Below are positions 11,442 to 35,224 of a stretch of DNA of 35,224 nt, piece after piece. Position 1 is the stretch's first letter. The number at the start of each line of letters is the position of its first letter. Origin of the DNA: Rhodospirillales bacterium (GTDB lineage Bacteria > Pseudomonadota > Alphaproteobacteria > Rhodospirillales > Magnetospirillaceae); the NCBI GenBank assembly GCA_014379805.1, contig JACMLB010000034.1, positions 1-35,224 of the forward strand. The letters run 5' to 3'. The position numbers were made by a program, and so were the translations under genes. The notes beneath the pieces were generated by a model. The model ran no database searches. It was not told where the DNA came from and worked only from the letters and a program-made list of their open reading frames with translations.

Positions 11442-11543
11442 TGTCATCCCGAACGCACGTGAGGGATTTCCGCTTGGCACACCGCGTCAGAACTAGCCTC
11501 CGACCTGCCAGGATGAGATCCCTCACATGCGTTCGGGATGACA
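11442..11543. repeat. Dispersed palindromic repeat, copy 1
   Basis: This 102-bp element is bounded by TGTCATCCCGAACG and its near-complement CGTTCGGGATGACA, and further inverted matches inside (GAGGGAT and ATCCCTC) allow a long hairpin. A second copy in opposite orientation lies at 34224-34331 and shares internal stretches such as CCGCTTGGCACACCG and GCCAGGATGAGATCCCTC. The element fills most of the gap between the convergent phosphatase and solute-binding protein genes, so it may also act as a bidirectional terminator. Confidence 0.85.
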
Positions 11544-19587: not shown

Positions 19588-20092
19588 ACCCGCCCTCCCG
19601 GGGATTGAGGTTCGATGCTAACGCAGGATTGCCCGGTGCGAAAGCCGGACCTCCAAAGCAGGGAACAAGGGGTAGGCCGGAAGGGGGAGATGGCAAACAA
19701 AAGGTTCTTCGCGGAAGTCCGGGGAGCGGCAGCGCTACCGACGCCGTTTTATTACCACCAAGGGCGCGAAGCTATCTGCTGTGTGGCTGGCTGGGCGCAT
19801 TCCTCGCCGCCCTCTTGGTGCCCTTGGTGGTGAAAACTATGCTTAGGCAAACTCGCTCGCCGACGTTCCCCGCCAATCCGCAATGAACCTTTTTCGGCGG
19901 GCACTTCTTCCGAGGTGCCTCGCCGGTAAGGGGGTTGGCGCGCTGGCACAATTCAACCCGCACGCAACGGGACGGGCGATGTGCGAAGGCGGAGGGGGGA
20001 GTTTGCTTAGAACCGGACGCCTTCCCAGCTGCGCTTTTCAGTGACGATGCATCTAGCAGCATTGGGCATCTGGCAGCATTTGGAGGGTCCCT
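19588..20092. other. Long intergenic region between the hydantoinase and DUF4383 genes
   Basis: This 505-bp gap lies between divergent genes and must contain both promoters. Its middle (19703-19888) is a dispersed repeat with terminal inverted repeats. The last 50 bases hold two near-identical 17-base units built on GCATCTAGCAGCATT and GCATCTGGCAGCATT (about 20048-20080), just before the DUF4383 ribosome binding site. No conserved coding frame was recognised. Short open frames here are mostly translations of the repeat. Confidence 0.7.
19703..19888 (+). repeat. MITE-like dispersed element with terminal inverted repeats, copy 1
   Basis: This 186-bp element begins GGTTCTTCGCGGA and ends TCCGCAATGAACC, an inverted repeat with two mismatches. 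It is closely similar along its whole length to 30689-30893 in the same orientation. Inside, TTACCACCAAGGGC near the left and GCCCTTGGTGGTGAAAA near the right form a second inverted pair. Compared with the other copy it lacks one 9-bp unit of the CACCAAGGG type in each internal arm, plus one C. No transposase is encoded, so it would depend on an enzyme from elsewhere if it moves. Confidence 0.85.
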
Positions 20093-30660: not shown

Positions 30661-30684
30661 GGGCCCCCGTCGCGGGGCCTTTTT
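30661..30684 (+). terminator. Rho-independent terminator after divK
   Basis: GGCCCC (30662-30667) pairs with GGGGCC (30774-type arm at 30674-30679), with a 6-base loop and five T residues (30680-30684). It ends transcription about 25-50 bases after the divK stop. A dispersed repeat begins just behind it, at 30689. Confidence 0.88.
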
Positions 30685-30688
30685 GTTT

Positions 30689-30893
30689 GGTTCATCGCGG
30701 AATTCCGGGGAGCGGAAGCGCTACCGACGCCGTTTTATTACCACCAAGGGCACCAAGGGCACGAAGCTATCTGCTGTTTGGCTGGCTGGCCGCATTCCTC
30801 GCCGCCCTCTTGGTGTCCTTGATGCCCTTGGTGGTGAAAAGTATGCTTAGGCAAACTCGCTCGCCGACGTTCCCCGCTAATCCGCGATGAACC
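30689..30893 (+). repeat. MITE-like dispersed element with terminal inverted repeats, copy 2
   Basis: This 205-bp element is bounded by GGTTCATCGCGGA (30689-30701) and its exact reverse complement TCCGCGATGAACC (30881-30893), a perfect 13-bp inverted repeat that extends imperfectly inward. It is the longer of two copies. Relative to 19703-19888 it carries an extra 9-bp unit in each of two internal arms (CACCAAGGG type on the left, its complement on the right) and one extra C. It lies between the divK terminator and the stop of the cytochrome c gene. Confidence 0.87.
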
Positions 30894-30909
30894 AAAAAAT
30901 GGGGTGGGG

Positions 30910-33365: not shown

Positions 33366-33941
33366 ATGATGAGGCTCTTCGCCGCTTTCGCGCTTGTACT
33401 GCTGCTTGCCGCCCCCGTTTGGGCGCAGCAGGACGGACTTCCCGCCGATCCACGCGGCGCCCAATCGGGCCGGTTGGAAGCGCGCGAGCGCCAGGCCCTG
33501 GCCGCCTTGGCGCGCAACGCCGCCACCGCGCAGCAAGTGGGCACCTTGGCGACCAAGCGGGCGGGCCAAGGCCGCCTGGGTGAATTGGGCCAATCCATGA
33601 CCGTGACCAATGGCGGACTGACCGAGCAATTAGCCCAGTTGGCCGGGCCGGAAAACATGCCGTTGCGCGAACGCATTGACCAAGGCGAGGTTCAGCGCCT
33701 GCAAGGCATGGCCAGCGCCGACCCGGGCAACTTCAGCCGCGAAGTAATTGCTTGGATCAACAAAAACTACCCCGACACCATCCGCAACATGGAGATGCTG
33801 GGGCGCGAAGACAGCCGCTATACCGCCTTGGCCGACGCGACCCTGCCGCAGTTGCGCGACCAATTAAGCGCCGCCCAGCAATTGGCCCAAGCCGCCATGG
33901 AAGGCGCCCCGCAACAGGCACAACAGCCGGGGCAGCGGTGA
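33366..33941 (+). CDS. Exported DUF4142-like protein
   Basis: This 191-residue protein has a signal peptide (MMRLFAAFALVLLLAAPVWA). The mature part is mostly helical: ARERQALAALARNAATAQQV, GTLATKRAGQGRLGELGQSM and TLPQLRDQLSAAQQLAQAAM near the end. The pattern of a conserved Met after a Gly-rich helix and a closing 'LPxLRxxLxxAQ' helix resembles DUF4142, a ferritin-like predicted periplasmic family of unknown function. The tail is Gln-rich. ATG 33366 and 33369 both follow the GGAAGGA ribosome binding site closely. Confidence 0.7.
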   Translation: MMRLFAAFALVLLLAAPVWAQQDGLPADPRGAQSGRLEARERQALAALARNAATAQQVGTLATKRAGQGRLGELGQSMTVTNGGLTEQLAQLAGPENMPLRERIDQGEVQRLQGMASADPGNFSREVIAWINKNYPDTIRNMEMLGREDSRYTALADATLPQLRDQLSAAQQLAQAAMEGAPQQAQQPGQR

Positions 33942-34019
33942 GGAAGAGGATCACGCCATTCCCGTTGCCGTCATGGCCGGGCTTGACCCACGGCTGTCTG
34001 GTCTAGTTTTTGATGTCGC

Positions 34020-34050
34020 CCGCAAAGGCAGGGGCAGCGTGCCTTTGCGG
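34020..34050. repeat. 11-bp hairpin
   Basis: CCGCAAAGGCA (34020-34030) pairs perfectly with TGCCTTTGCGG (34040-34050) across a 9-base loop. No T-run follows, so it is probably part of the repeat cluster and not a terminator. Confidence 0.8.
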
Positions 34051-34057
34051 CTTCAGC

Positions 34058-34071
34058 TGTCCAATTGGACA
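34058..34071. repeat. 14-bp perfect palindrome
   Basis: TGTCCAATTGGACA is a perfect palindrome within the nested repeat cluster. It could be a remnant end of an element or a protein-binding site. Confidence 0.7.
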
Positions 34072-34081
34072 CGGTTAATTA

Positions 34082-34174
34082 CCACAGAGACACAGAGGCA
34101 CAGAGAGGCTTTGCCAGACGGAGACCGATCGGGTTCTGCCCGCTCGGTATCTCTGTGCCTCTGTGTCTCTGTGG
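34082..34174. repeat. 25-bp inverted repeat of CACAGAGACACAGAGG type
   Basis: Bases 34082-34106 are the exact reverse complement of 34150-34174, with 43 bases between. The arms are built from short units like CACAGAGA and CAGAGG, and TTAA or TTAATT lies outside each arm. The element lies inside the 33968-34378 outer repeat. Confidence 0.9.
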
Positions 34175-34223
34175 TTAATCAAAAACGCCTGTCGAAGGGC
34201 AAGTCGTTGGTTTTCTGATAGTT

Positions 34224-34331
34224 TGTCATCCCGAGCGAATGCGAGGGATCTCATCCTGGCACGTCGGAGTACAGTTCTGACACGGTGTGCCAAGCGGAGA
34301 TCCCTCCTCCCGTTGGTCGTTCGGGATGACA
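34224..34331. repeat. Dispersed palindromic repeat, copy 2 (inverted)
   Basis: This 108-bp element is bounded by TGTCATCCCGAGCG and TCGTTCGGGATGACA. Read on the minus strand it aligns along its length with 11442-11543, sharing CCGCTTGGCACACCG, GTCAGAACT and GCCAGGATGAGATCCCTC. It lies within the nested repeat cluster. Confidence 0.85.
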
Positions 34332-34397
34332 GCCCAATTTTGAACCGGACAGCCGTGGGTCAAGCCCGGCCATGACGGTAAGGGGGTGGACAGGGCA

Positions 34398-35224
34398 CTA
34401 CCGCTCCTCTTCCGGCACACTGGCAAGACCGGCGCACGCCGGATCGCCCGTATTCTGCTGGCAACCCTCGGAGCGGTTGGATAAGGGGAGTTGGGCCGTT
34501 TCTGCGCCCGTCGTGCCCACCGCGCCGTCTAACGCACCGGCAACATCCGAACCGCCTGTCTGCACTGTGGTCGCCGACGAAGAACCGGCGGGCAGGTTGG
34601 TCGCTTCAGCCCCGCTAGGTGTCGTATCGGACGCTGTGTTGCCGCCGCTGAGGCCTTCCGCACCGCCCCCTTCAGCACCATCCACCAAGTTGGGTCCGCT
34701 CCCGCCAACGCTCGATCCACCGGTTTCGCCGTTTGCAATGGCGGCACCAGCCGGTTCTTCCACGAGCACCGAAGACCCACCCGTTTCACCAGTGACAGCC
34801 GCTTGGCCGTCATCCACGGCCGACGGCGTAGCAATAGTCTCGGCCTCGCCCGTGACTGGGAGAGGACTATCGCTGGCCGCGCCGGTCGTTGCGCCGCCGT
34901 TCTCGGCCTCGCCGGATACCGGCGAGGCCCCGGCGCCATTATCCAAATCTCCAGCGCCGCCCGTATCGCTGCCGGTGTCCTGCCCAAAGGGTTCGGCCAA
35001 GGGCGTGCTGGTCATCGGATAGGTGGGCGTCGCCGGTTCGGCCTGTTCCTTGGCGCTGGCACTTTCGGTAGTGGTCGCGGGCGCTGGGCAAGCGGAGACG
35101 CCCGGCATGCCGCACAGGGCAAGCCCTGACGACGTTTGTGCCGCTGGCGCCGTGCTGCTGGCATTGGTCCCGGCACCATCACCGCCGCCGGGCGTGCCGC
35201 CGCCAGGACCGCCGCCCGCCGTAC
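34398..35224 (-). CDS. C-terminal part of a large low-complexity Gly/Ala/Thr-rich protein
   Basis: The frame is open from the right edge of the window to the stop at 34398, so at least 274 residues are present and the start is missing. The sequence is rich in Gly, Ala, Ser, Thr and Glu, with repeated motifs such as GETGGSSV (twice), SGEAENGG and TGEAET, and glycine runs at the edge (GGGPGGGTPGGGDGAG-like). Cysteines occur in LALCGMPGVSACPAP and near the end (SEGCQQNTGDPACAGL). No domain was recognised. Composition and repeats resemble extracellular or surface proteins, for example the tail of an adhesin or exoprotein, but that is inference. An ATG at 35108 is internal. Confidence 0.6.
   Translation of the reverse strand, partial: TAGGGPGGGTPGGGDGAGTNASSTAPAAQTSSGLALCGMPGVSACPAPATTTESASAKEQAEPATPTYPMTSTPLAEPFGQDTGSDTGGAGDLDNGAGASPVSGEAENGGATTGAASDSPLPVTGEAETIATPSAVDDGQAAVTGETGGSSVLVEEPAGAAIANGETGGSSVGGSGPNLVDGAEGGGAEGLSGGNTASDTTPSGAEATNLPAGSSSATTVQTGGSDVAGALDGAVGTTGAETAQLPLSNRSEGCQQNTGDPACAGLASVPEEER

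Follow-up and report, generated by a model that had tools for sequence, protein, structure and literature searches.

What occupies the 456-bp gap between two convergent genes near the right end of a stretch of DNA from a Rhodospirillales bacterium, a gap mostly taken up by a nest of palindromes, and by what route did these palindromes come to enclose one another? The window, that is, the whole stretch of DNA analysed, comprises 35,224 nucleotides (contig JACMLB010000034.1 of assembly GCA_014379805.1) and belongs to an assembly of 3.62 Mb in 439 contigs that is 79% complete. A first-pass annotation had listed the inner elements, and all of them were found where it had placed them. The outer arms, 33968-33998 and 34348-34378, are perfect over 31 bp as it described, with complementarity reaching 42 nt at 93% (33961-34002 / 34344-34385); the 11-bp hairpin (34020-34030/34040-34050), the 14-bp palindrome TGTCCAATTGGACA (34058-34071) and the TGTCATCCCGA element (34224-34331, 108 bp, the other window copy being 11442-11543) are equally real, while the CACAGAGA inverted repeat (34081-34106/34150-34175) exists with perfect arms of 26 bp and not the 25 bp given for it. 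When 60 first-order Markov sequences were generated for this region, their longest inverted repeats averaged 9 bp and never exceeded 16 bp, against 31 bp here. The features are as follows.

33366 to 33941, plus strand: upstream gene for a DUF4142 protein; the REP half starts 27 bp past its stop.
33969 to 33988, plus strand: outer half of a REP palindrome with the CGTC tag (CGTCATGGCCGGGCTTGACC), interrupted at its loop, as read from the sequence.
33989 to 34008, plus strand: left terminal inverted repeat of a MITE-like element, CACGGCTGTCTGG...
34020 to 34050, plus strand: 11-bp hairpin module of the GGCAGGGGCAGCGTGCC type, common to the copies in the window's own genome and in a same-genus genome.
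34058 to 34071, plus strand: 14-bp palindrome TGTCCAATTGGACA, imperfect in 7 other aligned copies.
34081 to 34175, plus strand: CACAGAGA hairpin module with 26-bp perfect arms, which occurs also outside the shell (L036).
34180 to 34223, plus strand: inter-module spacer, its first part common to same-genus copies with another right module.
34224 to 34331, plus strand: TGTCATCCCGAG module of 108 bp, which also stands alone, for example at 11442-11543.
34338 to 34357, minus strand: right terminal inverted repeat of the MITE-like element.
34358 to 34377, minus strand: outer half of a second CGTC REP (GGTCAAGCCCGGCCATGACG on the plus strand), read in the same way as the first.
34398 to 35222, minus strand: convergent gene that runs off the window and matches no Pfam family at E 0.001; in locus L136 the same neighbour is followed by a frame resembling it.

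The nest is very probably a non-autonomous, MITE-like derivative of an ISRel1-type insertion sequence of the IS4 family, inserted in a CGTC-tagged REP pair between the convergent genes. The element itself spans 369 bp (33989-34357), has inverted ends of the consensus CACGGCTGTCCGGTTTAAA with REP halves on both sides, and contains no frame of 100 aa or more. Its ends are those of an autonomous IS, it is short and devoid of a transposase gene, and its copies are dispersed, as in IS4-family MITEs. The copies agree inward from CACGGCTGTCCGGTTTAAAT and diverge outward, and the CACGGCTGTCCGGTTTAAAT 20-mer, at three mismatches or fewer, occurs in 25 of the 55 genomes of the family and 26 times in the own genome, compared with 3 matches over all 55 for the reversed control pattern of the element end. 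The 31-bp arm is accordingly not one repeat; it is a half-REP followed by the first ~10 bp of a transposon end. The two outer arms joined as one 72-base query yielded one-arm matches only and no uninterrupted version, because the arm combines REP and transposon end, and the REP pattern is the right query. With that pattern, uninterrupted CGTC REPs were found in the own genome in 28 matches at two mismatches or fewer (reversed control, 1), many of them as head-to-head pairs about 70-80 bp apart, e.g., at L123. The uninterrupted host repeat that the first-pass annotation proposed to look for is, in other words, the intact REP.

The landing preference suspected at this spot proved to be real and to reside in the outermost palindrome, the REP loop. 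Of 38 element ends chosen by the 20-mer only, 26 are flanked by a REP half at 14/20 or better, versus 12 of 12,000 random 20-mers; the ends were taken at four mismatches or fewer in 30 loci fetched by the end pattern (L076-L105), those with less than 20 bases of flank were excluded and identical flanks were counted once, and some of the 38 flanks are probably chance matches, with L077, L081, L102 and L105 among the lowest scorers. The same preference is marked by target duplications at sister copies. Of 34 element copies, 14 are bordered by a direct repeat of 9 bp in which eight or nine positions agree, compared with a mean of 4.6 and a maximum of 9 in 2000 re-deals of the flanks; inverted flanks (at least 7/9) were found at 9 copies, and 11 copies show neither, among them L081, probably a chance pair of end matches. 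These repeats, exemplified by CGACAAGCG, GACTTGATC, GGACGAGCC and GGCTTGACC, mostly consist of the REP loop. As judged by eye, an outer REP half on one side is paired with an inner one on the other in ten of the 14 copies; L044 and L124 have a REP half on one side only, L095 lies in a divergent palindrome and L155 in another palindrome altogether. Two of the 14 are IS-sized (L154, L155), and one is a short Rhizobium element. The 34 pairs were accepted with no more than three mismatches in all per pair and 22 bases of flank, and many of their loci were found with queries containing a REP arm, which biases the set towards REP flanks. Fourteen loci were left out of it: L001-L008, L085 and L137, which duplicate other loci, and L136 and L138-L140, which are gene-neighbourhood loci. 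An earlier, looser pairing, made before the full scan of the Rhizobium loci, had given 53 pairs, with a direct repeat at 11.

These flanks also bear on a quite different delimitation, by which the whole of 33968-34378, REP halves included, would be one mobile element with its true ends at the CGTCATG tips, so that the reading as a broken REP would be wrong. Eight of the nine copies with inverted flanks (all but L131) have CGTCATG-type or nearly CGTCATG-type flanks on both sides, which gives them the look of one symmetrical unit. Yet 14 of the 34 copies have their direct repeat at the CACGGCTG boundary, ten of them lying between an outer and an inner half of a REP, and the letters of the loop change from one host REP to the next (CTTGACC, CTTGTCC, CGACAAGCG, GACTTGATC). 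This delimitation is accordingly considered very improbable.

The window copy has no target-site duplication. Its flanks match at 4/9 in direct and at 9/9 in inverted orientation, each side being an outer REP half. Under the preferred reading of a MITE-like element within a broken REP pair, an IS4-family transposase would have moved the element in trans, cutting at the axis of the REP palindrome, and the missing direct repeat is most likely the result of recombination or adjacent deletion within the REP pair. Copies present in both REPs of one pair could have recombined so that only the two outer REP halves were left, one at each end of the element; alternatively, a deletion from one REP axis to the other, adjacent to the element, may have left the same two outer halves. 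Such later rearrangement has to be assumed often, for 9 of the 34 copies with inverted and 11 with neither type of flank, and this counts against the explanation, the best one available.

The composite is by no means confined to this gap. At least 85 matches to it were found in the own genome, with 40 of 88 candidate regions scored, and of 297 genomes from the order, among them the own one, 95 matched some part of it at E 0.001; two candidate regions were scored per genome there, and the counts refer to the matches listed. Contig C212 holds a near-complete second copy (1994-2402, 88% over query positions 10-418) with the same inner order, C129 repeats this succession of modules at 83% with altered flanks, and the later part of the succession is kept by C369, which lacks the first hairpin, and by the contig-edge copy on C119; the other copies of the own genome are shortened or cut by contig ends. 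Among the matches listed, the best outside the own genome fall in two places of the same-genus genome G292 (query 6-219 and 209-418). In the plasmid records the TGT module had no match, and the composite matched 2 records and no more, with 10% of the query covered in each.

The interior is a mosaic of palindromic modules, namely a hairpin, the CACAGAGA repeat and a TGTC-REP-like pair, and the right-hand module is a different palindrome in sister copies. In an alignment of four copies from the own genome and four from G292, the left half is common to all (the end, the hairpin, the palindrome region, the CACAGAGA/CACGGAGA hairpin and the start of the spacer), with C369 lacking the hairpin part, and the right half is the TGTCATCCCGA module in one set and the GGACACGAAT palindrome in the other, the same right end closing both. 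A copy of the same kind as that in the window lies at a contig edge in G292 (L132). A third kind of interior (L118, L127 and L135, with fragments in L116 and L119) consists of a ACACGGAGG-type palindrome enclosing a REP-like pair, which is CGTCATCCCCGCGAAAGCGGGGATCCA in L116 and L127, takes variant forms in L118 and L119 and is shortened in L135. The first-pass annotation had held that an identical interior in every copy would make the nest one unit and not a nested structure; the interiors of L044, L118 and, in a same-genus genome, L124-L128 differ from that of the window copy, fully or partly, although the ends are the same. A clean shell without inner modules, with a boundary defined for each of them as that annotation had hoped, was not found among the copies, and exchange of the right module was seen in its place.

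The TGTCATCCCGA module may be read, following the part of PMC3733652 that deals with such repeats, as two REP-like palindromes with TGTC tags, arranged head to head. Among 28 copies of it in the loci collected from the own genome (matches shorter than 85 bases having been dropped), 16 lie in shells, 8 stand alone and 4 are unclear; the script had labelled 15 of the 28 as shell copies, and L018 was moved to the shell group and four copies to the unclear one by eye. In the tree of this module the shell copies are not one clade, and at least 3 changes are forced by the starred branches, in a tree too short for a firm origin and with weak clustering of the labels (45 of 500 label shuffles as low, for the shell group). 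No clear target duplication was seen beside the stand-alone copies. One of these is in the window itself (11442-11543, 102 bp), without a shell or a CACAGAGA module.

Several neighbouring structures were observed besides. In L019 (215-334, G000:C160) the CACAGAGA module is expanded to a run of 8-bp units, as if by microsatellite-like slippage, and the same 8-bp expansion occurs in the copy of another genome (L126, G292:C125, 411-857). A second two-layer nest lies in the window at 30683-30899, with outer arms TTTGGTTCATCGCGGA... (32 nt, 84%) around a ACCACCAAGGGC hairpin (30735-30840); its outer motif is also found directly inside a CACGGCTG end in L130 (G292), and another ACCACCAAGGGC hairpin, at 19749-19836, is flanked by nearly the same letters as the one at 30735-30840.

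At the orthologous locus of the Rhodospirillales MAG ES-bin-250 (L136), 34 bp separate the ends of the two genes, and neither a REP nor the element lies between them. Alignment gives a similar picture in G292 (L138), which may be the same organism, and in G294 (L139) the DUF4142 gene is followed after 2 bp by the end of a convergent glycine-rich frame that BLAST did not align to the window. Since these sites are without the whole structure, the nest is dispensable at this place. They are empty of the REP as well, and the order of REP first and MITE second was not seen at this locus.

The folding of the nest invites another explanation, that of a structured non-coding RNA gene whose palindromes are domains kept for function. 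The predicted RNA fold is a very strong closed multibranch structure of -271 kcal/mol, compared with -156 +/- 5.6 for 100 shuffles (z -20.6), yet inverted repeats by themselves are enough to give a stable fold; no Rfam family reached its gathering score, the best of 8 weak matches being eukaryotic microRNA models far below the cut-off, and a simple scan gave no promoter-like or terminator-like site. The modules are moreover exchanged or lost among copies, and the absence of the structure from the orthologous locus speaks against a needed role, so that such a gene appears highly improbable. Least probable of all, and hardly to be entertained, is true stepwise nesting at this spot with an independent landing of each inner palindrome, as the first-pass annotation proposed, for, although TGTCATCCCGA modules do stand alone (8 of 28, with 4 more unclear) and their shell copies form no single clade, the same modules recur elsewhere in the same order in C212 and C129 and in the later part of that order in C369 and C119; what remains of the proposal is that palindromic elements do lie inside one another, and not their separate arrival here, C212 having the same interior. 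Because C212 is a near-complete copy with this interior, the composite moves as a unit; it was probably assembled earlier and moved as such, and its modules would have entered the shell before the arrival of the window copy.

The autonomous partner of the element is indicated by its ends. L107, a locus in a genome of this family, holds a 1283-bp element with CACGGCTGTCCGG at both ends and a stretch of 432 codons, open from stop to stop and reaching slightly past the element end, whose frame matches the NCBIfam IS4 family transposase model (NF033592, 5e-74), DDE_Tnp_1 and DUF4372 and carries the YREK signature; this complete IS has inverted flanks and no direct repeat. Two genomes of the window's genus, G209 and G094, likewise have ends of this type next to fragments of a transposase, as does G185. 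The last genome (L106, L111-L115) has several copies of the IS end with the start of a DUF4372 transposase, mostly at contig edges and some of them without REP-like or clear REP flanks, and REP targeting looks looser there. In the plasmid records the nearest relatives are those of Rhizobium, three of the ones listed being annotated as ISRel1, at 65-68% over the match. The IS of R. etli IE4771 (L154), with the ends CACTGCTGTCCGGTTTAAA / TTTAAACCGGACAGCCGTG and a length of 1274 bp, sits in a REP with the exact 9-bp repeat GGTCAAGCC, and beside it lies a 267-bp short relative with its own repeat GGCTTGACC; its transposase shares 92% identity with that of an ISRel1 copy annotated in R. etli CFN 42 and 71% with that of L107. 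That annotated copy (L153) shows only its right end, and no REP beside it, within the stretch examined. Neither DUF4372 nor an L107-like transposase was found in the own assembly, as far as its 79% completeness goes, and in the family DUF4372 occurs in only 5 of 55 genomes versus 25 of 55 for the end motif.

The meaning of these findings is that confusing intergenic palindrome nests are explained as layered mobile DNA, and that a short element family is tied to a definite kind of partner IS and to a definite target, the axis of the CGTC REP; no new transposition mechanism is involved. As far as the literature searches reach, no description of this composite in print was found. A testable answer is also offered for the movement of REPs without a transposase of their own, although it is rather doubtful: REP-targeting IS4 elements might be the missing carriers of the CGTC/TGTC REPs, for which no dedicated transposase exists. 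In that case MITE shells would take up whole REP pairs along with other hairpin modules, swap these and set them down in further REPs, each kind of repeat thereby helping the other to spread in a cycle of nested cassettes.

Among the known systems, the CGTC REP superfamily of PMC3733652, as characterised in the cited part of that source, is matched by the uninterrupted genomic REPs (e.g., L123), which have the CGTC tag, AT at the stem base, the CCA tail, head-to-head dimers and an alphaproteobacterial host; the window differs in keeping the outer halves only, with a mobile element between them. The same part of PMC3733652 reports no association of the CGTC repeats with transposase genes. The REPIN/RAYT system was rejected, its tag being GTAG and not CGTC, and PF01797 has no match in the own assembly; this absence, and the presence of PF01797 in only 3 of 13 genomes of the genus, set RAYT aside as the mover of the REPs too. 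The partner ISs appear to fit the IS4Sa subgroup by the sequence of their ends, their size and their repeat length: the relevant part of PMC2266710 gives this subgroup ends of CA------T, 1150-1750 bp, a direct repeat of 8-10 bp and the YREK motif, and L107 and L154 have CACGGCTGT / CACTGCTGT, 1283 and 1274 bp, YREK in L107 and the 9-bp repeat in L154 (none at L107). In S. meliloti, copies of ISRm22, also of the IS4 family, are inserted in REPs at the palindrome axis, and imperfect direct repeats at 3 of 9 copies are explained by recombination or adjacent deletion, according to the portion of PMC1525189 used here; ISRm22 differs in being autonomous and in its 6-bp direct repeat, compared with 9 bp here. 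The IS4-family element on pSymB of S. meliloti 1021 (L155) has CAGGGCTGTCCGG ends and the 9-bp repeat CCGCCTGCG at a palindrome axis, with a transposase only 42% identical and another palindrome as its target; like places in other strains are annotated as ISRm16, and L155 was not told apart from ISRm22. A further close system is the ISRel1-type IS4-family element of L154 (in its record only an 'IS4 family transposase'), which shares the type of ends and the insertion in the REP loop with a 9-bp repeat, and which is autonomous at 1274 bp, in contrast with the window element, where a hairpin mosaic stands in place of the transposase gene. The locus thus holds nested mobile palindromes with a real landing preference and is a mosaic variant of the IS4-family elements, and of their short derivatives, that insert in REPs.
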